This document shows, piece after piece, positions 441-64,000 of a DNA stretch of 64,000 nucleotides; the stretch's first letter is position 1, and every line of letters begins with the position of its first letter. This stretch comes from Isoetes taiwanensis. Lineage: Eukaryota; Streptophyta; Lycopodiopsida; Isoetales; Isoetaceae. The notes beneath the pieces were generated by a model, which was not told the DNA's origin, did not search any database, and saw only the letters and a list, made by a program, of their open reading frames with translations. The DNA lies in contig JAJEKV010000002.1 of the NCBI GenBank assembly GCA_021234155.1, positions 21,541,726-21,605,725 on the forward strand. Direction: 5' to 3'. Both the position numbers and the translations under genes were made by a program.

Positions 441-792
441 TGGCTTCTGCATTTCTATTATAACTACAGCTTCAAGAAGCTTCAATGCAACTAGGACTTG
501 AGGCCCTATGCACATAACACTTCTCACAAGGAAACCATGGAAAAAATTAGTGGCTATTAATAGCCAAATGGCGATTTTTTAGGGGGTCTAGACAATTTTT
601 GCGGCGAATTTTATGAAAGGAGCTTTCTTTTAAAAAATTAAAAAATAGCCATATCTAAAACAAGTACTTCAGTATTTTCTTAGGATTAGCCAAACTATTT
701 CCCCCCTTTTCCTTAAAGAAAAATGGATTAGCGTTTCTTTATGTTACAATAATTACATATTAAATCATTAATAGCCAAACAAAAATGAATTC

Positions 793-910
793 CTTTCGAG
801 GCAGGGGTTTTTTAATCCTAGTAGTAATGATTGTACTAGCCCATTGTATGGGTCCCATGACCTATTGGTCTTCGTGGACGTTAAAAAAACTATTCTATTC
901 TATTCTATCA
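793..910 (+). mobile_element. LINE 3' tail fragment with (TATTC)n end
   Basis: About 118 bp matching the 3' end of the GC-rich LINE at 8.2-11.2 kb and 32.3-38.1 kb: the 3' half of the U-rich hairpin (ggggttttttaatcc), then the terminal hairpin with GTCC/GGAC stem (gggtcccatgacc ... gtggacg), then a TTAAAAAAA stretch and a short (TATTC)n tail. It is 5'-truncated inside the hairpin. The tail type differs from the (TTCC)n tail of the copy at 38 kb, so the tail is probably made or copied at insertion. No coding sequence remains. Confidence 0.8.
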
Positions 911-1896
911 TTAGTGATTGTAATTTTTCAAACTATGTATTTCTATTACATATACCATATATGCATCTTCAAAAAGGAATTGTAAGAGATGGCCAATATC
1001 TCTCTAGATGCCCGAGTTGGTTGCATAATATTTTCCCTCGAGGGATAAGTGCAATTTGAATTTAGAGAAAGTGTCATTGCATTGAATGTTGTTCAGATCA
1101 TGGATATTATAAGTTTTGTTGTGAGCTTTTGTTAAAAGGTTTTTAATATTATTGTATATTTCTTGATTGTTGATTATTATTTGTAATTGTAGTACATATA
1201 TCTAAAGCTACAGAATTTACATTTTTGTTTTTTTCAGTTAGAAAGAATACCCAAGTGAAAGTTTATAGTACTTAATCCAAAAGTTTCGCGAAGTCCAAGT
1301 ACATATAAATGTCATGGTAATAATAACTTTAGCCAAATATACATCATAAAGTACTGTAAAATTTTGAAAAATAGCCAAATCATTTTTTATGGAAAAATAT
1401 ATAGCATGCTTAATTTTTTCCCTGAAGGAAACTCTTTGAGGTTTCAAAGAAATTTCTCAAGCATTTGATTTGTTGATCTCAACGGCAATAATTATTACTT
1501 CAACTAGACTTGACAAAATGCTCTTCTCCATGGTGAAAGTATCAAGTTCTTAAACCTCATATATTATTTGTGTACATCTCCATGTTCTCTGCTTTTCTCA
1601 TGCATGTCAAACTTATGCAGCGAAATAGAGGTCCTGAATATGACTACAAGAATCGAACACTTTCATCTCTATCTCCTATTTGCGGCTTTTCTTATTCTTC
1701 AAAATTGTTCTGCTTATTCTTCAGCATTGCTCTGTAAGTGTATATCAGATTATTTGAGTCATCAATGGTCTATTCCAGTTTGTTGACTGACTGGATTGCA
1801 TGCTTGCCCTTCTTCCATATTTGCGGACTTGATTGTTCTTGATGCTGCCCTTCTTCAATATTTGCAGACCTGGTTGTTCTTGATGCTTTCTTTATG
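911..1896. other. no gene seen
   Basis: AT-rich sequence with scattered short ORFs that have no recognisable motifs. Near 1800-1880 there is a degenerate duplication of a 'tgcccttcttc.atatttgc.gac' unit. Confidence 0.5.
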
Positions 1897-2688
1897 TTAA
1901 AAAAGATCTAGCCATTCTATTATACAGCTGCAACAGAGATTGCGATCAATTTAGCTATGTCCACTAAGACTACAGAGAATCTCAAGTCAGATATATCCTC
2001 CACACCTTTTCCACTATTTTACTTGACAATATCTCTGCTGTTAAAGTACTATGTTGTGCCTACACAACGGTGCTAAAATATGTTTTTCTTTTGGGCAATC
2101 TCAAAAATTCCATCGATGCACTCAGAAGTATATTGCACTCTAGCCCTTGGTCATGCCTTTTATTTATGTTGTAGATCAATGGATGCATGTACTTATGCAA
2201 TCCGATCATCTAATAGACGTATGGAATGCATCATTGTGATGATTGTTATAAATCTTCTTGCAAACTCATACATCTATGCTTCTGATTGGCCTTTTTCAAA
2301 ATCTCTTGCTATGTTTGATATCTTTCTTGCATGCTATGCCATGGGTTAAATGTTAATTTGGTCGATATATTGTTCATATAATGCAAGAATATATTGCTCA
2401 TATGATTCAAGTATATAATTGATGTTCCTAATGATGCGTGATTTACTTTTCAGTCTATCCTTGAGTTGGTCTGTATTTTGGCTACATATGTAAGAATAAT
2501 GGGAACTTGAAATTTCAAGGACTGTTGTGAGTAGATTTGAATGGTTTGCATGACAGTTTGGAGACTTGATGGATGCATGTCTTGCATCTTATTGGGCTAT
2601 CTTCTTATTAAATCCGAATGATGGTCTGATAGCTTAAACCATGCTCAAAAAGATCTCAAAAATGAGGGAAAAAACACCACTAATGGGA
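1897..2688. repeat. repeat A, copy 1 (about 790 bp)
   Basis: This segment is nearly identical to 5112-5902, in the same orientation. Both copies begin with gttaaaaaa(a)gatctagcc and end with ccactaatgggattt. Differences are scattered point changes and small indels. I recognise no protein domain in any frame. Copy 1 is followed directly by the foldback element at 2689, copy 2 by family B sequence. Confidence 0.85.
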
Positions 2689-3109
2689 TTTTTTTTGCAA
2701 CACAAACCATTAACATCCAACATATAAAAATTAAATCCCCCCTAAAACCCCCTGTGGTTTGGGTGCATATTCACACGGGGGGTGACTCCGGGCATCGAGA
2801 GCTATTGGATGGGCATATTCATGAGTTATGCTTTGATTTGGACCGTAGATAGCGATCCTCGTTTGTGGGGTATGCTCGTACAAGTTTTTTTATACTGTAT
2901 AGCAAGACTTGTGAAATACTATAAGATTTGGCGCAATATACTTAATGGTGTTGATTTCAAACATGTATTATACCATTTTAGGCAGTATAAAAAGGGCTCT
3001 CGCTACCCTACGTCACCCCCGTGTGAATATGCACCCAAACCACAGGGGGTTTTAGGGGGGATTTAATTTTTATATGTTGGATGTTAATGGTTTGTGTTGC
3101 AAAAAAAAA
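2689..3109. mobile_element. foldback/MITE element with 98-bp inverted repeats
   Basis: The left arm (2689-2786) and right arm (3012-3109) are reverse complements over about 98 bp with only length differences in the T/A run and the G/C run. Each arm runs from a T8-9 tract and tgcaacacaaaccatt to the cacggggg(g)tgac end. A 225-bp centre (2787-3011) has no coding motif. Long arms and a short non-coding centre fit a non-autonomous foldback or MITE DNA transposon. The plus-strand ORF across the right arm is incidental. I could not define a target-site duplication. Confidence 0.8.
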
Positions 3110-3259: not shown

Positions 3260-4360
3260 TGGACAACATAACAACAAAAAATGATATATAGCAATTGTGG
3301 AGCCTCAAAAAAGGTCAACAGGTTATTAAAGAAGAGTTATCAATGGAATAAAGAACATTTGTTAAGAAGATGACCGTTAGGTCATGTCATGGGGATTGAA
3401 CCCAGCATATCCTTGTGCTTTATTTTAAAACTAACAACTTTGAATCAAACAATTTAAACTTAATGACATGAAGTTTCAATAATGCAAATGTGTTTTGCTT
3501 TAGCACTAAGGCTGAGTCCAACCATCTAAACTCAATGAATGTGAAGCTACATAAAACTAAGCATTTGCTTGATAATAAGAATTTAATTTGAAACAGCTTT
3601 AAGCAAAGTGTGAACCTGCTCATTGCAACACGCCAAATTATATATGTTTCAAGCTTTCTTGCCAATTCTAGTCCCTAAACATTAGGCGGCCAACAGATAA
3701 GTCATGACTAAGATCCAAATGCGAGATGCATTAGTGAAAGGACAGAAAATAAAGAGGCACAAACAAAAATTTTAGAATTCAAACCAGAAAAAAACTAGAA
3801 TTGATTTGAGGCTTTCATCACCTGTAGCTTTTGAATTTGATCACAATAAAACAAATAGGACATAAGTAAAAGTTACCATAAAGATAGAGCAGATTGATCC
3901 CATTATTCTGAAAGTCATAAAGTTTGCAACACCCATACACAAACATTTTTCAACTGGAATTTAACAACAGCCTTTGGCCTCCATGGATTCTTGTGGTGAG
4001 AAACCAAAGTGGGAAACTTTTCTGCTTGTTAGCACAAGGATCTAGAAGCCTTGGAATTTGCTTAATAACTGCCTCGAAATCTAAAAATGCATGGTAATTT
4101 TTTGCAAGCTTCATTCGGAATGAGCCATAAAACAATATCCAATAGTGCAATCCTGTATTAATCAGATGGTAGGATGTGAAAGCCTACCAAACCCGGCCGA
4201 AAAATTGCTGTTTTAGCATAGATAACTTAACCAAACATATCCATATCATACACTATCAAAAAAATCTCGGAGAGAGCCATCTCAAACAGAGCTCTGGATC
4301 AAAAGTTATAATAAGAAATGTGTTGCCGGCGGGGAAACTACACTACATGCGCCCTTCAAG
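3260..4360. other. no gene seen
   Basis: AT-rich DNA without recognisable coding sequence. On the minus strand near 3390-3405 there is a tRNA-like B-box string (GGTTCAATCCC) but no convincing A box or tRNA fold. Confidence 0.45.
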
Positions 4361-4679: not shown

Positions 4680-5108
4680 TAGATATAGCAAAGTATAATA
4701 CAACACATTGTTGTAGTTCCAGATAGACTCCAGATATTGGTATTCTCGAATAAGGACTCGCATGAAAACAGACAAAAGCTCCCGATAGCCAGGCTTTTCA
4801 TTCATCTCAGCAGTTTTTCTACAATGGTATAGAGTGGGTAGCTGCACATCGCAGGTTACCCAAAAAATGAAAAACATAGAGAATATCCAGTTATAACACC
4901 TGGACCCCAAATAAAATTGTGTGCTACAGATATTGGCTAGTGTACCTGCTGAGAGCTTATCGCCGGGATTAAAAAACCGCGCCCTTTTGGGTTTTTGAAG
5001 AAAAACCCTAGCGATAAAATCTCGGCAAGGGGCTTGGACAACAGAAGGCTGCTAAACGTTCCCACAAAAAAAAAAACCCACACTCCACAGAAAACACCGA
5101 AGTCATGC
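4680..5108 (-). mobile_element. family B repeat, copy 1 (truncated)
   Basis: Near-identical to 5917-6345. It contains the shared start (ggtattctcgaataaggrctcgcatg), the U-rich hairpin at 4956-5018 and the 'caaggggc(t/g)tggacaa' block. It stops at catgcat, where repeat A copy 2 begins, so the right-hand third of the family is missing. Orientation is given so that the U-rich hairpin reads as RNA on the minus strand. No coding sequence. Confidence 0.75.
4956..5018 (-). ncRNA. ENE-like U-rich hairpin (family B copy 1)
   Basis: On the minus strand a lower stem TTATCGCTAGGG / CCCGGCGATAA encloses an internal loop of TTTTT on the 5' side and TTTTTTAA on the 3' side, then a weaker upper stem, an A-rich 5' bulge and CCC..GGG. 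This is the layout of an ENE (element for nuclear expression), which clamps poly(A) as a triple helix. The upper stem here is partly degraded. Confidence 0.5.
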
Positions 5109-5111
5109 ATC

Positions 5112-5902
5112 GTTAAAAAAAGATCTAGCCATTCTATTATACAGCTGCAACAGAGATTGCGATCAATTTAGCTATGTCCACTAAGACTACAGAGAATCTC
5201 AAGTCAGATATGTCCTCCACACCTTTTCCACTATTTTCCTTGACAATATCTCTGACGTTAAAGTACTATGTTGTGCCTACACAACGGTGCTAAAATACGT
5301 TTTTCTTTTGGGTAATCTCAAAAATTCCATCGATGCACTCAGAAGTATCTTTGCACTCTAGCCCTTGGTCATGCCTTTTATTTATGTTGTAGATCAATGG
5401 ATGCATGTACTTATGCAATCCGATCATCTAATAGACGTATGGAATGCATCATTGTGATGATTGTTATAAATCTTCTTGCAAACTCATACATCTACGCTTC
5501 TGATTGGCCTTTTTCAAAATCTCTTGCTATGTTTAATATCTTTCTTGAATGCTATGCCATGGGTTAAATGTTAATTTGGTCGATATATTGTTCATATAAT
5601 ACAAGAATATATTGCTCATATGATTCAAGTATTTCCTAATGATGCGTGATTTACTTTTCAGTCTATCCTTGAGTTGGTCTGTATTTTGCCTACATGTGTA
5701 AGAATAATGGGAACTTGAAATTTCAAGGACTGTTGTGAGTAGATTTGAATGGTTTGCATGACAGTTTGGAGACTTGATGGATGCATGCCTTGCATCTTAT
5801 TGGGCTATCTTCTTATTAAATCCGAATGATGGTCTGATAGCTTAAACCATGCTCAAAAAGATCTCAAAAATGAGGGAAAAACCACCACTAATGGGATTTA
5901 TT
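5112..5902. repeat. repeat A, copy 2
   Basis: Second copy of the 790-bp segment at 1897-2688, lying between two family B copies. No domain recognised. Confidence 0.85.
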
Positions 5903-6190
5903 TCGCTAAATAGTCCCAGATAGCAAAATATAATACAACACATTGTTGTAGTTCCAGATAGACTCCAGATATTGGTATTCTCGAATAAGGGCTCGCATGA
6001 AAACAGACAAAAGTTCCCGATAGCTAGGCTTTTCATTCATCTCAACAGTTTTTCTACAATAGTATAGAGTGGGTAGCTGCACATCGCAGGCTACCCAAAA
6101 AATGAAAAACATAGAGAATATCCAGTTATAACACCTGGACCCCAAATAAAATTGTGTGCTACAGATATTGGCTAGTGTATCTACTGAGAG

Positions 6191-6253
6191 CTTATCACCG
6201 GGATTAAAAAACCACGCCCTTTTGGATTTTTGAAGAAAAACCCTAGCGATAAA
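6191..6253 (-). ncRNA. ENE-like U-rich hairpin (family B copy 2)
   Basis: Same architecture as the hairpin at 4956-5018 and 62050-62112: a lower stem of about 11 bp, a TTTTT / TTTTTTAA internal loop, an A-rich bulge and CC..GG. One arm has changed so that a G-U pair replaces a G-C pair. The upper stem is weak. Confidence 0.5.
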
Positions 6254-6390
6254 ATCTCGGCAAGGGGCGTGGACAACACAAGGCTGCTAAACGTTCCACC
6301 AAAAAAAAAAACCCACACTCCACAGAGAATACCGAAGTCATGCATTGCCCTGGACCTGCACATCACCAACAAAAAAACCAATAGAGAAAA

Positions 6391-8235: not shown

Positions 8236-8332
8236 CATTCTAATAGGAATAGAATAGAATAGAATATGATTTTATCGTCCACGGAGACTAACTGGCCTAT
8301 GGGACCCAAGTACAAAGAGAGAGCAGCAGGCG

Positions 8333-8399
8333 TATTACTACCAGGATTAAAAAACCCCCGCCCCGAAGGGTTTTCGGGGGAAAAACCTTAGTAGCAATA
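8333..8399 (-). ncRNA. ENE-like U-rich hairpin in the LINE 3' UTR
   Basis: Minus-strand RNA: lower stem ATTGCTACTAAGG / CCTGGTAGTAAT, U-rich internal loop TTTTT / TTTTTTAA, upper stem CCCCCG / CGGGGG, an AAAA bulge, then CCC-TTCG-GGG closed by a UUCG tetraloop. The lower stem differs in sequence from that of family B but still pairs, and the tetraloop is TTCG instead of GAAA. This indicates selection on RNA structure. Confidence 0.65.
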
Positions 8400-11238
8400 A
8401 GGATGCTGACATACCGCATGATTATATACATAATCACAAGTACAACCGAGGTTAATGTCGGGGTGGGGGCATAAGCGAGTCCACGTATCCATTACCTCCC
8501 TGGAGGTCTGATCCCAACAAGCCCTCTGGTAGTGCTTAAGAATTAGCTCATGCAAGGCCCGATGGGGCACAACTAACCGAGCATACCGAGCTGGATATCT
8601 TTGATGCGGGCAAAGACCTTCGAGGGCGTGACTTTCATCCTCAATGGTGCCCTGTTGGCGGCAAAGATGCTCAAAACACTCGTCTCACGCTGCTCTCGAA
8701 TCCATCTCCATGTCTCAATGTGGAGGTGGTGTGCACTGTCGCGAATGGAAGCAATCACCCTGCGCTTTTTCATGGGTAGATGGGTGCGAGGTAGTGGTGT
8801 GGGCCCCTCGTGAGCATGGGATTAACTTGTTGTCGATAATTTGCCACCTTGACATGCTTGGCCATGAAGCAAGCATCCAAATGCTTTGCTTCAAGGCGCA
8901 GCGTTCCGCCGGTGTATGCACCGATCCACATCGTGTGCTGCACATTCCATAGCGAGAACCACCGGGCTTGCTTAGCGGGCTTTGAGTCGGCTGCGGGCCC
9001 ATCGCCCTTTGCCAAAGCAAGGTTGGGCAGCCGGGCTTCATCCATAGCCACCACCTTACGGAAGTAAATAATGTGGCGTTCACCAAAGCAGCCCTCAGTA
9101 ATGGAAGGAAGCCTTTGTCTCCCGGAGCAAGATCGATATGGGACCGTGGACTTCACTCCCGAACAAAGGGCCAAGAAGGCCTTCTCGTACTGCTCTAGAT
9201 CGTTCCAAGTGGTGAGGGATATCACCGCCCCCCCACTTACGCCACATAGAGGAGGACCGGTTCAACCAAGGCCACGAACAAGTGTGCTGGTGACCCCATG
9301 CATCTGGCTCGCCTTTGTGATTTGTTGTTTTGCATTGCATCTGGGGGCTTTCCACCTGCAGCGGTGACCCGTAACGATGGTGTGGTAGTAGAAAACTCAA
9401 TGCCCAAATACTTATAAAGATCGAGCCACCTCCACTACCTGCCTACGGTAAGTGAATGAGGGAAGGCGTGGGTGCGGGATGATGGGACCAAAGCTGACAC
9501 CCTTGTCTGGCCAAGTTAACTCTCATGTCGGTGAATTGGGCGAAAGTGTCCAAAGCATCCGGTGGCGTTGCATGTCCCTGCAGGGTATATATGCGAAAGC
9601 AGGTCAACATCATCGGCATATATGAGTTGCGGATTATGTGGTGCATCATCGGCGCCTCTCCCAGGTGCTCGGCTAGCCATTCTTCTAGGCTGGTCAATGT
9701 ACAATTAAGATGTCGGGGATAGAGGGCAGCCCCGGCGCACCCCAATGCTACTAACAAGCGGGCTCCCCGATAGTGTGAGAGAAAACGGAGCAAGCCTCAG
9801 ATAGTGCGTATATAGCATTACGCAAGTCGGCGGGGGGTCCATAGTCGTCTCAATATGTCCCACAACTTATCGAGGCAGCGTGTCAAAAGCCTTTTGCGAA
9901 ATCCACAAAGCAACGGTCATGTATTCTGGCGTTGATTCCGGCTATCCTCTATGAGTGTTCGCAGAGTGAAGATATGGTCAATAGTAGAATGCCTGGGCGG
10001 AAGCTTTGCTCATGCGTGAGAGCCCGCGACTTCTCCATCCTCGCCCAAAGTGTCGGGCCGGCCGCTCAAGAATCCCGGCAAGCAACTTGGCAAAGCGGAA
10101 TCCGACCATAATGGTGCGATAGTTGGTTGGGCCGTGGGGGTCCCCTACTCACCGGGTAGTCCGGGAGGGGGGGGAAGCCTTCTTGCAATGCCCCGTTGAA
10201 GAGTCTTTGAATTAAAGCACCATTGGGGCCCGCCCACTTGAGAAGCTTCAATCGCATACCATCCAAATCTGGCTTTCCCTTCAGATTAGGCGTTTGGAGC
10301 CCATTATGACATCCCTTCAAGAATGACCCGATTGCAGCTAAGCCTGCGGAGAATGCTTGGTGCCCGGCTTCCCATTGGGTCATACAATTTTTGCAAGTAT
10401 CTCACCCATTGTTAGGGTAATATTTCACGTGGGTTGTGCGGGCTTACTCAAGACCTTTCTCCGGAAAGGTCCTAGGGTGGCGGTCTAGTAGACCAAACAT
10501 ACATTCTTTGGTGCTCATTAAAGGTACCGGCTTTCTTGGTCTTGAGGAAGGCGGTATTGAAGGGCGACTTCTTTGAGGGCGAATGGTGGGGTCCGGCACT
10601 TGGCGGGGCCATCGTTTGACTCCTCGACATTAGATCATCGAACCCGGTGATTGCGGGGAAGGTGGTTGCAGCCCACGTGGATCGTCGAGGCGGCCTCTCC
10701 CAAAGCATCATGTCCCCTACCCTCGAGGAAGATTTTGGATTGTTGGGCCGTCTGCTTGTTGAAGTGTGTTTCTGCGGCCTCCGGCAGCTCATGCTCAAGC
10801 ATCCTCGCATAGGACGCCGCATGATCATAGTTCGGGCCTTAACCGTGGTACATGGGGTGTTGGGGCAATGGGTGCTTTCGGTTGGCTGCCAATCTATCTG
10901 CAAAAACGGTGATGGTGGGACTCTACTTCCTCGTCCGGCCACTGTCCGGACAATCAAGCGAGTGATCAAGTGTAGGCATTGCTCGTCCGCTAGCACGTAA
11001 TCCACCGCGACCGGTGCCGCCCCCGGTTCTCCACGTCTACAAGTGAAGCGGGTGGAGGGGCGCACCGCATGCCGACCATTGCAAATGACCGGTCAAAGAT
11101 CTTGCCCGGCAAAGCAATGCCGGCCATATCGTGTCACATGGCTGTCATCTGACGCCCTTGGCCAAACCATCTCTGCGGGATCCATTTGCAACACATCCTC
11201 AGCTAGAGGTGCGAATTTTGGGATCTGCTCTGCCCCTG
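8388..11238 (-). pseudogene. LINE endonuclease/reverse transcriptase pseudogene
   Basis: Decayed ORF2-like coding sequence. The end of an apurinic-type endonuclease is seen on the minus strand around 11200-10900 (SDDSHVTRYGRH, then VDYVLADEQC). RT-like sequence follows, for example KWAGPNGALIQRLFNGALQEG near 10250 and a YADDVDLL-type active site (frame-shifted) near 9600. The C-terminal block with IASIRDSAHHL lies near 8745. Reading frames change many times and stops are frequent, so no functional protein can be made. The clade is not clear; the microsatellite tail argues against a typical plant L1, whose tail is poly(A). Confidence 0.8.
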
Positions 11239-19991: not shown

Positions 19992-21330
19992 CTAATAAAA
20001 CCAATGTGGCGTGGCTATGACCAAGAACAGTTGGGCGTCTGGAAAAACATCAGAAACGCCCGTGGACGGATCATCTGTGTGGATGCATGAGAGATAATCA
20101 GGCACAACATGAGATTTTCCAGCCTTGTGAATGATTTCAAAAGGAGTGAACTCTTGCAGAAGCAAGACCCAATGAGCAATGCGACCCGTGGGTGTGGCTT
20201 TGTTGATCAAATAGAGAAGAGCTTGATGATCAACAAAGAACTTGATCTTGCTGTCCAACAAATAATGACAGAAACGTTGGACACAGAAAACTAAGCCCAA
20301 TGCTTCCCGCTCCGTGGCAGAATAATTGCACTCCGCAGGATTGAGTTTTCGGCTGGTATAGCGGATAGGTTTATCCATGTGCTCATCATATGCTTGAGAG
20401 AGGACAGCACCAATAGCAAAAGCCGAGACATCCACATGAACATGAAAGGGCTTGTCCCATTGAGGGGGAACAAGGACTGGTGTTTGAGTAAGCAAAAGCT
20501 TCAGCTTCTGGAAGGCCGCCTCTGCCTGGGGATTCCAAACCCAAGAGGATTCGTCACCCGTGAGTATATGAATGGGATCAGCAATGGCAGCGAGTCCAGG
20601 AATGAAGGTGGCATAGTAATTGACCTTACCCAGGAAGGAGCGTGTCTCTTTAGTGGTGGATGGTGCATGTGCCTTCAGCACACAACTGATTTTGGCAGGA
20701 TCCGTGGTGATGCCTTCTTTACTAACCACATGACCCAAAAGGACACCCGAGGTGATACAAAAGGTGCATTTTTTTGGATTGAGACTGATTCCAGACTCAT
20801 CACATTTTTGAAAGACGAGCTCTAACTTCTCCAGGTGATTATCCATGGAACTGTAGGCTGAAAAATCATCTTGAAAGATGTGAAGAAAGGGACGATCTTT
20901 CATATAGTTTTGAAATACAAAAAGCATGATGCGTTGAAATGTGGATGGAGAGTTTGATAGCCCAAAAGGGACCACCTTAGACAAAAGTGCCCCACGGTGT
21001 GGTGAAAGTGGTTTTGAGTTGATCTTCCTGTTTGATGGAGATTTGATTGTATCTTGAAAAGCCATCCATGAAGGAGTACATCTCGTGACCAACGACCTCT
21101 TCCAGAACCTGGTCTATGAAGGGTAGCGGGAAATGATCTCGTTCCGTGGCCTGATTTAATTTCCTATAGTCCACGCAAACTCGGATTTTTCTATTGTGCT
21201 TTAGAGCGATGACAATGGGGCTCACCCACTCTGAATGTTTGACCTCATAAATCAAGCCAGCAGCCAAAAGCTTGTCGATTTCAGCTTTGACGCGGTCACG
21301 ATAGTTGGGGTTGAGCCTGTACTGTCATTG
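19992..21330 (-). pseudogene. gypsy reverse transcriptase and RNase H pseudogene
   Basis: Two overlapping frames cover RT. One (21267-20977) has VSPIVIALKHNRKIRVCVDY and DHFPLPFIDQVLEEVVG. The other (to 19992, 366 aa) has VVPFGLSNSPSTFQRIM, an F-Q-DD active-site box (HIFQDDFSAYS, normally Y-x-DD), GKVNYYATFIPG, then RNase H with HVDVSAFAIGAVLSQ, ATEREALGLVFC and FFVDHQALLYLIN. A frameshift near 21000 separates them. Coding ends just after RNase H. Confidence 0.85.
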
Positions 21331-33582: not shown

Positions 33583-34597
33583 GATGGAACAGCAAGCCCG
33601 GCCCTCGGCGCCCGTGTCTTTGGGGCTCGAGCACGCTCTCGCTACTCGAGCACGGAGCTCCGGGGGTTGCGGGCAACCATCCACGAGGCGAGCGGGGTCT
33701 CCCTACAGGGTTCATAGTCATTAACGCGGCCCGGTCGCGGGCAGGAGATGGCCAAGCGGCGAGGGCTCTGCAGAGAGCTGTGCTCCCGACTTCCGCGAGG
33801 GGCGAAGCGGCGGCTCGGACGGCTATCGCCACGGCCTCCGCCCGGCGCCCGCCCCCCTTCGCTGCCCGGCTCTCCAGCCCTCCCGCGCCATCCCGGCCAC
33901 ACTCCGGTCCTCCCGCCATCCCAGCCACCACCACCACCCCGGCCGGGGACCGGCCTTAGCCCACCTTGGACCCGCGGTAGCGGAGAACTCGGGGCCCTTG
34001 GCGGGAGGAGGCCACAATCGGTAGTTGAGGCATGCGAACAACGAGGGGAGAGTCGCCCACAACATCGAACACACATTTCGATCGGATGACATTCCGAGGC
34101 AGTTCACATTTCTCGAGCAGCGGCATGGGGCTCGGCGCCCGGGCGTGACTTCATTGTCATATTCGCGGTTGCGGATGCAGTGCGTGATGCCATATTGCGC
34201 CCGAGGCCGGATGTTGAAGGGACATCCACATGCGTGGGCCGGGACCTCACACCCGTCTGCGGCCGGGAGAGCCGCGGGCGAGGGAGCTTGTCGGGGGTCG
34301 GAGGCATTAAGCCAGCGAAGTGCCGCGGGATTGGTTGGCGGGATGCACATTTCCGGCTTGACAGACACGCTCTGCTGCGGACCAGCGGCCCCAACCCGGT
34401 GCCGCAGCGGCCACCTTCTGCTTCTACTACCACGGCCCCCCTTCTCCACACTCCCTACTCACGCTCCTGCTCCCTCGCGGCCCCGCCCCCTCGACCACAT
34501 CTTTGCCTCCGCTCCATCTACTTCTCCTCGGCCTCTGCTTCCCGTCCTCCCCATGACTCGGGCTGCGCATACCATCCCTGGCGACAAATAGGAATTG

Positions 34598-37395
34598 TGC
34601 CTCGGGTGGTCTCATGGAATTGTCGAGGCTTCCCTTGGCGAAGGGGCGGTCGAACTTCAGTGGCGGCCCGTTATGGATCTCATCTTCCTCATGGAACATG
34701 GGAGCATCTTTGAGCCACGAGGCTACGATTTCTTAGGGTTACCAACATTTTCGGTCTTCAATACACATGCGGGGACGCCCGGGGTCATGGTGGAGTGGCT
34801 TGCTACTACCGGACAACCTTGGCACATTGATTTACCCTCCGGAGACGGGGCGGACACAACCGGTGCCACGGGTTCGTATTGCATAATACCGGTGGCAACC
34901 CTCTTTTTACGGCGCTGTTATTTCCCTCCCAGCTTGACGGCACCTTCTATCGCGGCCACCCGATGCGGATAGGATGGACCCGTATGTCGATCTATATGAT
35001 GACATACTGGCGGCATCGGCGATTGGGTAGGGTCGTCCTTCTTGGAGATTTCAATGCGGACGGGAGTAGAGCAGCCCATGCGACTTGACCCGGCGACGAT
35101 GTCCCGCAGCCTACGCCCCATGAAGTAGCCCGCCACGCGGGTCGGATGACAGCCGGTCACTTTCGCTTTGCGCATGGTTGCTCTGCTATGTGGCATTTTT
35201 GACTTGATAATTTGCAATGGCCTTTCCACGGTGGCGATTCACCGCAAGTGCACATGCGAGGCGGGGACAATCGGGGGAGGGTCTAGTGTGGTGGACTATG
35301 TGCTTGTAGTTGCGCCAAGATATGCATCTCATCGGTCGTTTAGGGTGGGCGCAGACGTCGGGATGAGGAGGTCGACTCGGATCACCTCCCACTTTATTTG
35401 GACTGGTTTGGCGAGCCGCCAGAACCCCCACTATGCCACCCCTCGCCAGTCCTCGGTTGAGACTTCGATTATGAGGGAGGACTACGCCGAGATGCTCATG
35501 GGCGCCTCGCGGTAATTGCAGACCTCCACACTAGAGCAACAGACGGACCAGACCCGGTGACCGCTATTACGGGATGCGGCGGACGGAGTGCTTTGGCGGA
35601 ACCAGCGTCGCCGCCGGGGGTCAGCAACATTCCCTAAAGAGCCGATGGTTTGATGCGGTTGTAAAAATAGCTGGCGGCTCCGTCACATACGGATCCGTAC
35701 CACCCGCGAGGCCACCACCGCGATCTGCGCCCATCCGGAAGGACACAAAGGCGCGGTACCTTGCCAAGCATCGGGGAGATGTTGACTCTTTGGACACTCA
35801 TCCTCGAACCTTTTGAAGCAGAGAGTGCTTGAAGGCCAGCCGACTACGGGGGACATCACACCCGGTAGTGGGAACGATACTTGCAAAGACTCTATGACCC
35901 GCCCGGGGGCAGCGTACGCCCATACCCCCACAGGATGGCCCCCATTGGTTCGTGGACGAGGATGTTGAGGAGGGCCACGCAACGGCTAGCTAATGGGAAG
36001 GCGGTGACCTCGATGGTATGCGCAGCCGAGTTACTCAAGTGGGCGTGGCAGCCGCTTGTGCCGGGTCCCTCACTACCCTGTTCAACGAGCATTGCGGGAG
36101 GTTTCCCCGACAATGGACCACAAGCGGGGTTGTTCCCATTCACAAAGGCGGGCGACCCACCTTTGTCCGGCCAATTCACCGGACGATCATGGTCGGATTC
36201 AAGATTTGCCAAAGCTGTTGCCGGCATTCTCGGCAGCGATTGACCCGGGCAAGAAGCGGCCGGATGTGCGAGCCCCTCCGCAGGCGGGCTTTCGACCCCG
36301 CCACTCAGCGATTGACCATATCTTCTGGCTGCGGGCGATTGAAGACGGTAGGAATCATCAATTTGGACTTGTATTCTTTGCTTTGTGGACTTCGCAAAGG
36401 CTTTTGATACGGTCCCGGGAAAAGCGTGGGCTGAAGCTGCGTCAATCGGGGCTCCCGCTTTGTGCGTAATGCCATATACAAAGTTGTATGAGAGTTGTTT
36501 TGGCGGGATGCGTGAAACCCGCCAAGCATTCACCAAGTAGTATCGAGTCGGCGGGGGTTGCCCCCCCTCGCCAACACTTTTGGCCTCTACATTGATCGAT
36601 TAGAGCCCCCGGCTTCTGCGAGCATGGGGGATGGCATACAGCTTTTGCACCAGGTCATCCGCCCGGCTCATCTATGCGGACGATGTTGGCTGCCGCCCAC
36701 ACCCGAAGCTATGCGGTCTCACTGGATGCCCTAGACACATTTTGTCGCTGGACATGCGGCGTCAATCGGCCAAGACCGGTGGTTCTCATATCCTCTTCAC
36801 GTCACCCCATGCCTCCCCGCACTCACATATCGGGGGCGGACTGTGGGACGCCACGCCCACCTACAAGTACCTAGGGGTGGAGTTCCCCTCCTCGCTCTGG
36901 CGGGAGGCGTCTATCCGCTATGGGTGACAAGAAGGCCGGAAAGCGCTTTATGCCATTGAACAACAAATATCGTGAAGCAGTGAGCTATATGATTGGGGCC
37001 ATCGGTCACATCTCATTCGCACCGGTCGAGCCTTGTCCTTACATGCGGGTCGAGGTTTGGGGCCCGGGCGTCTCTTTGGCGACACTGGAATGACTTGGGA
37101 GCAGTGCGAAGGCATTTTTGCACGGGCACTTGGGGTGAAACCTTGGTCCCCTATCGGTCTTTGCAGAAATCGGATTCTTGCCGCCACCGGCAACCCTTGA
37201 TAGACACATCGCCTATTTTCGTAAAGTGGTTACTATGGGTGATGCTCGCGGCCCCGCACTGGCTTACTTCGCGGGCCATGAGTCCGCGGCGGCTTAGGGC
37301 CCGTTGGAGGGTAAAGAGATCGGTGGTTCGCCCGGATGGAACGCAACGTGAGAACGATGCGCATACCGGGGCCGACCCGATCGTGGACTGACTGG
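34598..37395 (+). pseudogene. LINE endonuclease/reverse transcriptase pseudogene
   Basis: The endonuclease starts with VVSWNCRGF at about 34598, then VVLLGDFNADG at 35035 and SSVVDYVLVVAPRYASHRS at 35280. RT shows TTLFNEHCGRFPRQWTTSGV and VVPIHKGG (36080-36150), PQAGFRPRHSAIDHIFWLRA (about 36280), DFAKAFDT-like sequence in another frame near 36390, and LIYADDVG at 36667 (the Y-x-DD catalytic site, intact). A C-terminal segment with ASIRDSAHHLRDRGGR is at 37547. Many frameshifts. It is the same family as the minus-strand copy at 8.4-11.2 kb. Confidence 0.8.
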
Positions 37396-37928
37396 GGAGT
37401 ACCTAGATGCTTGTTTCCTTGGCAAGCTCGGGACCCCATTGCTCTAGAGCAGGTCAAAATGGCCCATTACAAGGAGCACATCAACCCGTGTTAGCGGGGC
37501 CCACAGCTCTACTGCGTTCCGCCTTGCCCCCGAAAAGCGGACTCATTGCCTCCATTCGCGACAGTGCCCACCATCTTCGAGATCGAGGCGGGCGGGTGGA
37601 TTGGGGAGCCCCGCCAGACGTGCTCTGTCGGTCGGTCAAGCGGGTGCCATTGAGGATGAGTCTCACACTTTCGAGTTGCCCGGCGTTTCGGTCGGATCAG
37701 GGCGGATCACGCCCCTTAGTACGGCCGGACATGCCCTTGCATTTGCTTGATGAACACACCGTCGATGCGTGCCCCGGGGTCATACATCCAGAGGTCTTTG
37801 GACTGCGAGGAGGTCACCTTTGCCCCCCACCGGGCTGTCCGTGACTAGGCACTAGGGGTGGTGCATGATCAGATATATTGGGATGTTTCGCATTTTATAT
37901 GATTAGCACGGTTTGTTGGCCAGGTGAT

Positions 37929-37992
37929 TCTTTGCCCACGTTTTTCCCTCGAAAACCCTTCGGGGTGGGGGTTTTTTAATCCGGGCAGTAAT
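37929..37992 (+). ncRNA. ENE-like U-rich hairpin in the LINE 3' UTR
   Basis: Plus-strand RNA: lower stem TGCCC / GGGCA with flanking pairs, internal loop TTTTT / TTTTTTAA, upper stem CCCTCG / TGGGGG (with G-U pairs), an AAAA bulge and CCC-TTCG-GGG. It is the counterpart of 8333-8399; the lower stem sequence differs but still pairs. Confidence 0.6.
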
Positions 37993-38051
37993 CCGCTTGC
38001 TGCGTTTTTGTATTGGGTCCCATAGACCGATTGGTCTCCGTGGACGATAAA

Positions 38052-38082
38052 AGTACCTTCCTTCCTTCCTTCCTTCCTTCCT
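38052..38082. repeat. (TTCC)n microsatellite, LINE tail
   Basis: Direct (ttcc)n run immediately after the LINE terminal hairpin. It is read as the 3' tail of the element. Confidence 0.85.
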
Positions 38083-38189
38083 TTTGTATAACATCATAGC
38101 TGAAAAGAGCAAAATTTACAGCTGATTATACAATCCATGAAATGAAGACCTCAAAAACATCCTAGTTTAAAAGAATTAATAACAGTAGA

Positions 38190-61288: not shown

Positions 61289-61847
61289 GTAAATCTTTTG
61301 CAATAAATCAGTCCTTCGGCTTCATTTAATGCCTAAAGGTCGACGTCACTGTAATAAATGAGGTGTCAACGTCACGAAATCCTCCCTAATAAATAAGCAT
61401 GTATACGTGTCTCGTCCAAGTAACTTTGAAGGGAGAAAATGTGTGAGAACAAAAAAATGATTATATAGGTGTCATAATTGTCTGTCATAAATGCCTGCAA
61501 TGAATGAGTCTATACACGTGTCATGTTGCAGTAATTTTCAAGGCGTGTAAATCTTCTACAATAAATCCGTCCATAGGCTTCATTTAATGCCTAAAGATCG
61601 ACGTCACAAAATCTTCTATAATAAATGAGATGTCGACGTCATGCAATCCTCCCTAATAAATAAGCATGTATACGTGTCTCGTCCAAGTAATGTGTGAGAA
61701 CAAAAAAAATGATTATATAGGTGTCATGATTGTCTGCCATAAATGGGTCCACAATAAATGAGATGTCGACATCACACAATCCTCCCTAATAAATAAGCAT
61801 GTATACGTGTCTCGTCCAAGTAATGTGTGAGAATAAAAAAAATGATT
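61289..61847. repeat. complex tandem array rich in ACGT motifs
   Basis: Units of 100-260 bp recur. The modules are cgtgtaaatcttytrcaata, 'ggcttcatttaatgcctaaa', '(g)tcgacgtca', 'cctccctaataaataagcat', 'gtatacgtgtctcgtccaag' and 'aaaaaaatgattatataggt'. The last modules reappear at 62909-63005 beyond the inserted family B copies. Many ACGT cores (GACGTC, TACGTG, CACGTG) are present. Confidence 0.8.
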
Positions 61848-62546
61848 CTAGAATGGGGCTCGCATGAAACCAAAAAACCGCCCGAATAGGCTTCTCATTC
61901 ATCTCAGCAGATTTTCTACAATGGTGGACAGTGGGTAGCCGCACACATGCGAACTACCCACAAAAAATAAAGGGAAAATCCAATTATATCATTTGGACCC
62001 CCAAAAAATACAATGCTAATAGATGAGTGGCTGATGTACCTGTCGAAAGCTTATCACCGGGATTAAAAAACCCCGCCCTTTCGGGTTTTCGAGGAAAAAC
62101 CCTAGTGATAAGCCTTCGGCAAGGGGCTTGGACAAACGTAAGGCATAGAAATCGCTCCCAAAAAATCCCCGCATGGAGAAGTCGAAACAGATGTCGCTCG
62201 CCAACCTGTACCTGCACATCACCAACACAACAAACGAGACAACACAAACATACTAGAGAATAGCATCACCCAGGGGGTGGAAAAAAAGCATCACCCAGCG
62301 GGTGGAAGAAAAACATGATAAACAGAAACTTGTGCACAATACAATAAACAAAGAAGGGGCGGGAGGGTGGGTTCAAAGAGAATAAGGTATTGCTGAGAGA
62401 AGAGGAAGCGCCGATGAGACGTTGATGCAGAACCGCACCTAAAATAGCGAAACCCCAACCAGAGAGGGCATGCACCGCATGCATGCATGCAAGACAGGCA
62501 TGCTCGCCCCATCCTAGAATGTCGATCCGATGTCTCGGATTGAAGC
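61848..62546 (-). mobile_element. family B repeat, copy 3 (full length)
   Basis: It is flanked by GATT at 61844-61847 and 62547-62550. The ends are imperfect inverted repeats: CTAGAATGGGGCTCGCATG (61848-61866) against CATGCTCGCCCCATCCTAG (62499-62517). The U-rich hairpin (62050-62112), the GCATGC palindrome block (62476-62502) and the terminal ATCCGATGTCTCGGAT hairpin are all present. Short ORFs are not supported as genes. Confidence 0.75.
62050..62112 (-). ncRNA. ENE-like U-rich hairpin (family B copy 3)
   Basis: Minus-strand RNA: lower stem CTTATCACTAGGG / CCCGGTGATAAG, loop TTTTT / TTTTTTAA, upper stem CCTCG / CGGGG, AAAA bulge and CCC-GAAA-GGG with a GNRA tetraloop. It is the best preserved family B version. 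Compared with the LINE hairpins the stems differ but pair, and the U tracts, A bulge and AATCC are constant. Confidence 0.65.
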
Positions 62547-62550
62547 GATT

Positions 62551-62908
62551 CTAGAATGGGGCTCGCATGAAACCAACAAACTGCTCGACTACCAGAGAAC
62601 TTCCTTATCAAACTAGAATCGAGGACGAAGGTCACAGGACGAAGGCTAAAGAAGGGCCGAGGCCGAGAAAGGGCCAGAAACGCCAAATGGGCCAAACCAA
62701 GCAGGAAGAAGCCCCTCTCCTGCCTGGAAAGAATTCAAAGAGAATAAGGTACTGCTGAGAGAAGAGGAAGCGCCGATGAGATGTTGATGCAGAACCGCGC
62801 CTAAAATAGCGAAACCCCAACCAGAGAGGGCATGCGCCGCATGCATGCATGCAAGACAGGCATGCTCGCCCCATCCTAGAATGTCGATCCGATGTCTCGG
62901 ATCGAAGC
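62551..62908 (-). mobile_element. family B repeat, copy 4 (internally deleted)
   Basis: It shares both ends with copy 3 (ctagaatggggctcgcatga at the left; gcatgctcgccccatcctag and the terminal hairpin at the right) but lacks the centre with the U-rich hairpin. It is bordered by GATT at 62547-62550 and 62909-62912. It stands in tandem with copy 3. Confidence 0.75.
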
Positions 62909-62914
62909 GATTAT

Positions 62915-64000
62915 ATAGGTGTCATGATTGTCCGCCATAAATGCCCACAATAAATGAGTCCACATATGTGTCATGTTGTGGTAATTTTTAAGGAAGAAAA
63001 TAGGTGAGAACAAAAATAGGACACTGCTTTATATAGAAAGAAGCTGGGGTGGTCTTGGCTGGATGCATTTCGAAGAGCTAAGAGATGAAAGAGAGTAGAT
63101 TTGTTTTTAGGGATGGCAAATTACAGACACTCCAGACACCCAGGTCTTTTAAGAAAGCCAGACGGTAGGGTTCCTGTATCTCAACACATTCCCTAAAGCA
63201 ATGAACTAAATGCCATGCTCTTTGATGGTGCACAGCTATGGCTAAGGAATCCAGAACTGGCTCAAGGAATTTAGTTATAGGTATGTTCTCAACTCCGTAG
63301 CCATAGTCGATAGGCATAACAGATTCGGGCTTTTTGTGTTCAGAGAGGCGACAAAATCTTAAAGCAGTGAATTGCGCACATCCCGATCATATATATTACT
63401 AAAACTTGCAGGAAGGAATGTAGCAAATGGATTTTCGGCCACAAGAGTTTATCCCAGCTATTGGATCGAAACCAAGAAACATCCACAGGTCTGTGTCCCT
63501 GATTTATTGGGCTCTTCTAGAAGTTAGATTTGTAGCAGGAATGACAAAGGCTTATTAAATGTACAAGTTACCAAATCACAGTAACATTTCCACGTATGCA
63601 TCATGACTAAATCATCTTGGAGTACCAATATACTGAGAGATATTAAATGTTAAACATGATAGGCAAGTCACGCTCTTGCTATGGAACTGCTACAAAAGGA
63701 GCCATGGCTTAAGGATGTGTAGCCCCTGTTGGAGAAGGTATGTTTGTTTGTAGATCGTTTTACGTTTGGTTTTCTTTTAATCTGCATTATTCTCCCTTGC
63801 ATGTGGTCTGTATTGGCATGTGTAAGCATGTGGAATTTGGATCATAAAACTTTCAGTGGTTTCATGTTGTTGTTATCATATTATCTACTTCGATATGAGA
63901 TTTGCACTGGTTTGATTGAATTTAGATTATAATTTTTTTACTCGGTTCAGGTTAATCCCATTGTATATGTTTAGATCACGAAATTTTCATTGGGTTCATG
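62915..64000. other. no gene seen
   Basis: After the resumption of the ACGT-rich array (to about 63005) this is AT-rich sequence with short ORFs lacking motifs. The window ends in non-coding DNA. Confidence 0.5.

Follow-up and report, generated by a model that had tools for sequence, protein, structure and literature searches.

A hairpin with a U-rich internal loop closed by G-C pairs recurs in transposable elements of Isoetes taiwanensis, including LINEs with microsatellite tails. ENEs have been described in viral RNAs, in a few lncRNAs and in plant transposons, where their presence is already established; in the sources consulted, the transposon cases worked out are an LTR element and a hAT element. 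The question raised by this locus is whether the hairpin is likewise a clamp for poly(A), or whether it serves the LINE reverse transcriptase (RT), a host protein or no function at the RNA level. The stretch of DNA analyzed, referred to as the window, is 64 kb (64,000 nt) long, and a first-pass annotation had proposed the first two of these roles for the hairpin.

Copies of the hairpin in the window

The core pattern searched was GTTTTTC-N-GGTTTTTTAATCC, which includes the U tracts. Full cores are located at 8344-8386 (-), 37940-37982 (+), 4966-5006 (-), 6201-6241 (-) and 62060-62100 (-), with the 3' half of the core only at 806-818 (+), and the copies listed in the first-pass annotation (8.3, 37.9, 4.97, 6.2 and 62.1 kb, and a 3' half at 0.8 kb) were all recovered (Table 1). 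The 13-nt 3' part of the core is identical in all six sites, and 100 shuffles of the window gave no full core. Both the U5 and the U6 tract are present in all five full window copies, which were found without the search pattern.

In the sense RNA of the 8.3-kb copy a long lower stem is followed by a bulged A, a GG/CC clamp, an internal loop of U5 against U6AAU, an upper stem, an AAAA bulge and an apical CCC-UUCG-GGG. Each of the parts that had been described as shared (GG/CC clamp, U5 opposite U6AA, GC upper stem, AAAA bulge and CCC-tetraloop-GGG) is present, the lower-stem arms that had been quoted do pair, and the tetraloop is TTCG in the LINE and GAAA or AAAA in family B, as had been read. 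The hairpin is real.

Table 1. Hairpins, tails and coding remnants of the elements in the 64-kb window
Feature	Position	Strand	Remark
3' half of hairpin, 5'-truncated LINE copy, group F3	792..830	+	
3' end of F3 copy	852..909	+	terminal hairpin 852-879, A7 883-889, (TATTC)n tail
ENE-like hairpin, family B (partial copy 4685-5110)	4952..5022	-	decayed upper stem
ENE-like hairpin, family B (copy from 5920)	6187..6257	-	decayed upper stem
Microsatellite tail (TATTC)n, F1 LINE	8244..8267	-	
A4 run 3' of F1 terminal hairpin	8270-8273	-	
3'-terminal hairpin of F1 LINE (GTCC..GGAC, inner stem)	8277..8305	-	candidate RT-recognition hairpin
ENE-like hairpin, LINE group F1	8328..8402	-	lies in 3' UTR of decayed LINE
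Parts of F1 hairpin		-	bulged A 8388/8389; U5 8381-8385; AAAA bulge 8371-8374; UUCG loop 8364-8367; U6 8349-8354
Decayed LINE ORF fragments	8388..11092	-	endonuclease-/RT-like motifs by eye; give sense strand
Decayed LINE ORF fragments	34592..37844	+	stitched RT query from here matches RVT_1 proteins
ENE-like hairpin, LINE group F2	37924..37997	+	decayed copy
3'-terminal hairpin of F2 LINE, then A-run	38017..38045	+	
Microsatellite tail (CCTT)n, F2 LINE	38056..38083	+	
ENE-like hairpin, family B	62046..62116	-	GAAA tetraloop, best-preserved window copy

Genome-wide copies and element families

Exact cores number 8,640 in the genome (1.66 Gb, 1,110 contigs), while a control search with the reversed pattern gave none. 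The loci examined are the first 50 among the matches listed (about 100) of these 8,640 cores. Sorted by eye, 32 of them are LINEs, 13 belong to family B, two each to families C and D and one to family E; the 32 LINE loci comprise groups F1 (4), F2 (4), F3 (13), F4 (8), F5 (1) and F6 (1) and one unplaced copy. Since B1 and B2 are subfamilies within a single family and the single-copy E may be a diverged C, the ten (sub)family representatives analyzed below are not ten independent families.

The hairpin is carried by LINE 3' UTRs and by at least three other element families, and by blastn families B, C and D do not align with the LINEs outside the hairpin. Lower stems from different families nevertheless look related (for example CATTACTGCAAAGG, TATTACTGCTAAGG and CATTACTATTAAGG), which we take to indicate descent from a single ancestral module, by inheritance or by transfer between elements, and not convergence.

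Several arrangements of these elements were noted along the way. A pair of direct repeats of about 800 bp (96.5%) occupies window positions 1899-2698 and 5116-5906, and its right copy lies between two 426-bp segments of family B (95.8%), at 4685-5110 and 5920-6345. In families B and C (window 61845-62915 and loci L097, L104, L105 and L117) a 5' hairpin (in B, for example, GATCCGAGACATCGGATC) is combined with termini resembling TTCTAGAA, and portions of their copies are arranged head to tail. Locus L100 carries two family B hairpins in opposite orientation, at 1134-1203 (+) and 1487-1557 (-), approximately 350 bp apart. A sequence related to the lower stem but shortened (TTCTCATTAGGGTTTTTATATCCCGATGAGAA), lacking the U6 tract and upper stem, scored 30.8 bits at L089:133-174 (+), and a weak model match at window 3942-4020 was discarded because it has no U tracts.

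Covariation and strand

The first-pass annotation had stated that lower stems differ between copies while pairing is kept, and this holds for the five window copies as well as for the first 50 genome loci. Among the window copies, five of the 12 lower-stem pairs are changed on both sides (7 of 500 shuffles had as many, and slid partners gave 0-1) and 91.7% of lower-stem cells pair (1 of 500 shuffles), with a number of pair types not above that of shuffles (147/500). Pairing across genomic copies was assessed with the ten representatives, from whose shuffles the decayed F6 (L118) was left out. Here 93.1% of lower-stem cells pair against a shuffled mean of 79.3%, a level reached by none of 2000 shuffles, and sliding the partner by one to three columns lowers pairing to 27-62%. 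The lower-stem covariation score is 246 versus 60 (0/2000 shuffles), and in seven lower-stem pairs both sides have changed, against an average of 4.2 in shuffles (30/2000); pair types were again not above shuffles (680/2000). The upper and apical stems, from whose counts the 6 of 50 loci with inner lengths other than 24 or 26 were left out, are 96.5% paired (14/2000) and have three pairs with changes on both sides (50/2000), their pair types not exceeding shuffles (1547/2000). Shuffle counts of this kind are not strict probabilities, as the representatives are not independent.

Over all 50 genome loci, the 1028 pair cells consist of 864 Watson-Crick pairs, 98 G.U, 18 A.C and 48 others, and the sense fold is lower in energy than the antisense fold in 48 of the 50. 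The excess of G.U over A.C points to the LINE sense strand; we infer the transcribed strand of families B, C and E from the hairpin alone. That the structure exists and has been under selection at the RNA level is close to certain. A repeat copied passively, or acting at the level of DNA and without RNA function, would fit with the copies examined lying in repeated elements, with hairpins that are recognizably homologous across families, and with single-copy antisense folds as good as the sense folds for family B at 4.96 and 62 kb. Against this, the compensatory changes and the bias of G.U over A.C point to selection on the sense RNA, and we regard such a passive repeat as very improbable.

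Constant features of the hairpin

Some of the invariance among the 50 loci is due to their selection, since both U tracts, the -1/+1 pair, the first upper pair and the AAUCC stretch belong to the pattern. Outside of the pattern, G at -2 and the bulged A at -4 are found in 50/50 loci and the AAAA bulge in 42/44, while the tetraloop is TTCG in 25/44 and GAAA in 14/44 (together 39/44). The -2/+2 pair is G-C in 50/50 and the second upper pair C-G in 44/44, one side of each being set by the pattern.

A bare U-loop clamp would not require the AAAA bulge and the bulged A to be as constant as they are, which hints at another partner. If the hairpin were a structured RNA to which a host protein binds, for export, retention or processing, and the U tracts mattered less than the AAAA bulge, the bulged A and the stable tetraloop, this would account for the constancy of the two A features, neither of which was searched for. 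No such protein partner is known, and the five full window copies, whose stems and loops differ, all retain the two U tracts intact, as an ENE would; the host-protein explanation is accordingly judged unlikely.

Fold energies and chance controls

RNAfold z-scores are -3.04 (sense) and -0.28 (antisense) at 8.3 kb. For family B they are -3.33 and -3.05 at 4.96 kb, -3.06 (sense) at 6.19 kb, and -5.41 and -4.89 at 62 kb. The antisense values at 4.96 and 62 kb are about as good as the sense ones, so the z of a single copy distinguishes the strands at 8.3 kb and not for family B. The 37.9-kb copy (z -0.68) folds no better than its shuffles and has a different minimum-energy fold; compared with the intact relative L103, which has the full fold at -46.2 kcal/mol, it lacks one G below the U tract.

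A scan of the window for ENE geometry, devised after the hairpin had been seen, gave two sites (8.3 and 62 kb) against an average of 0.075 in 40 shuffles, one of which also reached two. Both stem thresholds are passed by these same two of the five window copies, the others being decayed in one stem. Among 66 core matches in viral (11) and prokaryote (55) contigs, 14 passed for the upper stem, three for the lower stem and none for both.

The loop itself was compared with competing folds in 12 sequences. The open U loop ties with the best fold in three (F2, F4 and F4b). In five others (F1, B1, B2, C and D) UU-AA pairing is better by 1.4-2.1 kcal/mol and shrinks the loop to U3/U6, as it would be predicted to do unless binding of an A-run pays for the opening. 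Another fold is better by 1.6-1.7 in F3 and F5, and in the decayed F6 and E the hairpin with an open loop does not form (2.7-2.9).

LINE 3' ends and the probable site of RT recognition

The LINE copies carry a second hairpin of the form GTCC-GACC-loop-GGTC-GGAC, which adjoins the tail in the three window LINE copies and in 30 of the 50 genome loci. The window's family B copies lack its sequence, and among the 50 loci none of the 18 that are not LINEs gave a match to it within 160 nt of the core. Its single-copy fold energy is unremarkable (z +1.0, -1.2 and -1.5); its support comes from position and sequence conservation. From the core to the end of this terminal hairpin there are 47-70 nt in 30 loci, and from the core to the tail 72-77 nt in the five checked. 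Between terminal hairpin and microsatellite lies an encoded run of A4-7 in 29 of the 30 LINE loci with a recognized tail.

No poly(A) was seen at the LINE 3' ends examined, and 20/20 F1 copies end in (TATTC)n. Over their final 131 nt, at least 40 F1 copies (the best 40 among 1,806 candidates) share 97-100% identity. In 20 F1 copies the shared stretch extends back over 0.4 to 5.9 kb, which is what 5' truncation of LINEs would produce; the identity of their 3' ends was rejected as a sign of constraint because the copies had been chosen by that same stretch. Two loci, L071 and L112, have LINE tails without the hairpin and with other sequence directly before them, and are very short 5'-truncated copies that retain no more than some tens of terminal bases. 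The first-pass annotation had considered the microsatellite tails odd. The tails are real, yet they are not unusual: in the part of the source available, a table of 29 green-algal LINE families has 22 ending in non-A repeats, two in (A)n and five in none (PMC3747384).

The coding remnants are poorly preserved. Pfam searches with ten LINE fragments gave no RT family and only a sub-threshold DUF2784, and a 46-aa translation of the LINE 3' end had no matches. The stitched RT query gave five distant RTs, the one named match being from the fern Adiantum (27% identity). Elsewhere in the window, the first five named matches of a Gypsy RT/RNase H ORF at 19992-21113 (-) are liverwort and fern proteins (42-47% identity), with more distant matches also in animals and seed plants.

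The ENE-like hairpin had also been proposed as a possible RT recognition hairpin. More broadly, it could be recognized by a LINE-encoded protein for reverse transcription or RNP assembly, the other families being mobilized in trans through it. Stringent LINEs, as described in the available portions of two reports, need a 3' UTR stem-loop that partner SINEs share (PMC4176376, PMC5135761). F1 and F2 have bodies that blastn can no longer align, yet their hairpin and tail still share about 84% identity (in the window, 86% over 117 bp), and one of the two family D copies ends in (TATTC)n as the LINEs do. That copy (L121, downstream of 1541) lacks the LINE tail sequence and may be LINE-dependent or related; the other (L113) has a different end. 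However, it is the second hairpin that abuts the LINE tail, L121 has a similar GTCC..GGAC terminal fold with its ENE-like hairpin 476 nt upstream, and families B and C do not end in a LINE tail. The stem-loop of stringent LINEs is found at the extreme 3' end, ahead of the tail repeats, a place held here by the terminal hairpin and not by the ENE-like one. Because of this match in position we assign RT recognition to the terminal hairpin, which is the better candidate, and the recognition role proposed for the ENE-like hairpin becomes less likely: possible, but improbable on present evidence.

A putative poly(A) clamp

We modestly favor the reading that the hairpin is a cis-acting RNA clamp of the ENE type that stabilizes transposon RNA. 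The ENE interpretation of the first-pass annotation stands as far as geometry is concerned, namely a U5/U6 internal loop with G-C on both sides in a transposon RNA; triple-helix formation, poly(A) binding and RNA stabilization are extrapolated from that likeness. U-rich stretches face each other across the stem-loop in all five full window copies, the helices are backed by covariation, and G-C pairs directly flank the U loop with three exceptions among window copies, these being a C-C at -2/+2 at 37.9 kb and the decayed upper stems at 4.96 and 6.19 kb. The loop is unequal, with U5 versus U6AAU. It is not a double ENE (dENE) with two stacked U-rich loops, as there is one U loop and the second irregularity is the AAAA bulge. 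Rfam searches of the window gave no gathering matches, with four sub-threshold bacterial sRNA matches at the hairpin, and four family loci gave one sub-threshold SNORD96 match only.

If the clamp operates as an ENE, the U5/U6 loop, closed by G-C on both sides, would take up an A-run as about five U.A-U triples. The A-run gripped would most likely be the poly(A) tail of a Pol II transcript, and slower decay from the 3' end would leave more transposon RNA for copying. For the LINEs, such a clamp would work ahead of reverse transcription or independently of it, and copying would begin elsewhere, at the terminal hairpin and the microsatellite tail. With such a start, poly(A) would leave no trace in the genomic copies. 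A different version, which we consider doubtful, is that the module moved between kinds of transposon and in LINEs grips the encoded A4-7 run; the resulting intramolecular triple helix would protect a non-polyadenylated LINE RNA end and hold the tail ready for target-primed reverse transcription.

Comparison with known systems

The closest systems are the plant transposon ENEs of Evade/Copia93 in Arabidopsis and the hAT element TWIFB1 in rice. The rice ENE structure 7JNH is presumably that of TWIFB1. It is described in PMC12707130, as far as the available text of that source goes. The accessible parts of the reports give both elements a U-rich internal loop closed by G-C within a transposon RNA, as here (PMC12501189, PMC10855403, PMC12707130). 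Evade has four U-rich tracts and TWIFB1 a double-domain ENE, whereas the Isoetes hairpin has a single U5/U6AAU loop, to which a constant bulged A (below the clamp) and an AAAA bulge (in the upper stem) are added, and is also found in microsatellite-tailed LINEs. For Evade, the same partial text reports that changes to the U loop and to neighboring G-C pairs abolished triplex melting, and that deletion of the ENE lowered RNA stability and mobility (PMC12501189).

The ENE of KSHV PAN likewise has a U-rich internal loop with G-C clamps, a likeness by description and not by sequence; from the descriptions available, PAN is a viral lncRNA with a poly(A) tail, unlike the LINEs here. The MALAT1/MEN-beta triple helix combines a U-rich internal loop with a downstream encoded A-rich tract, forming nine U.A-U triples and one C+.G-C, and its 3' end is made by RNase P and Z, according to the portions seen of PMC11411715 and PMC10855403. 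In the LINEs the encoded A4-7 run lies some 47-70 nt downstream and its engagement is putative. ARAGORN found no tRNA in the window, and no Rfam match to a MALAT1-type tRNA-like 3' end was obtained in the sequences tried. The 3' stem-loops of stringent LINEs (UnaL2, ZfL2 and a plant L1 lineage) also lie in the LINE 3' UTR and vary in stem sequence. They are placed at the very 3' end in the parts of the sources available (PMC4176376, PMC5135761, PMC3747384), where the elements studied here have their second hairpin.

What appears to be new is a single-domain ENE-like module, with a constant bulged A and an AAAA bulge, that is common to LINEs without poly(A) tails and to other element families of one genome and covaries between them. 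No report of an ENE in a LINE was found among the titles and abstract openings listed from the open-licence PMC literature. Tycowski et al. (2016) reportedly catalogued some 200 ENEs in non-metazoan transposons, and that catalogue may contain some from LINEs.

The occurrence of one covarying module in these LINEs and in other element families, with thousands of exact cores in one genome, makes it testable whether poly(A) clamps help retroelements that apparently do not use poly(A) for priming, and by what routes transposons exchange RNA stability modules. The many natural variants of the hairpin amount to a ready-made mutational scan of an ENE.
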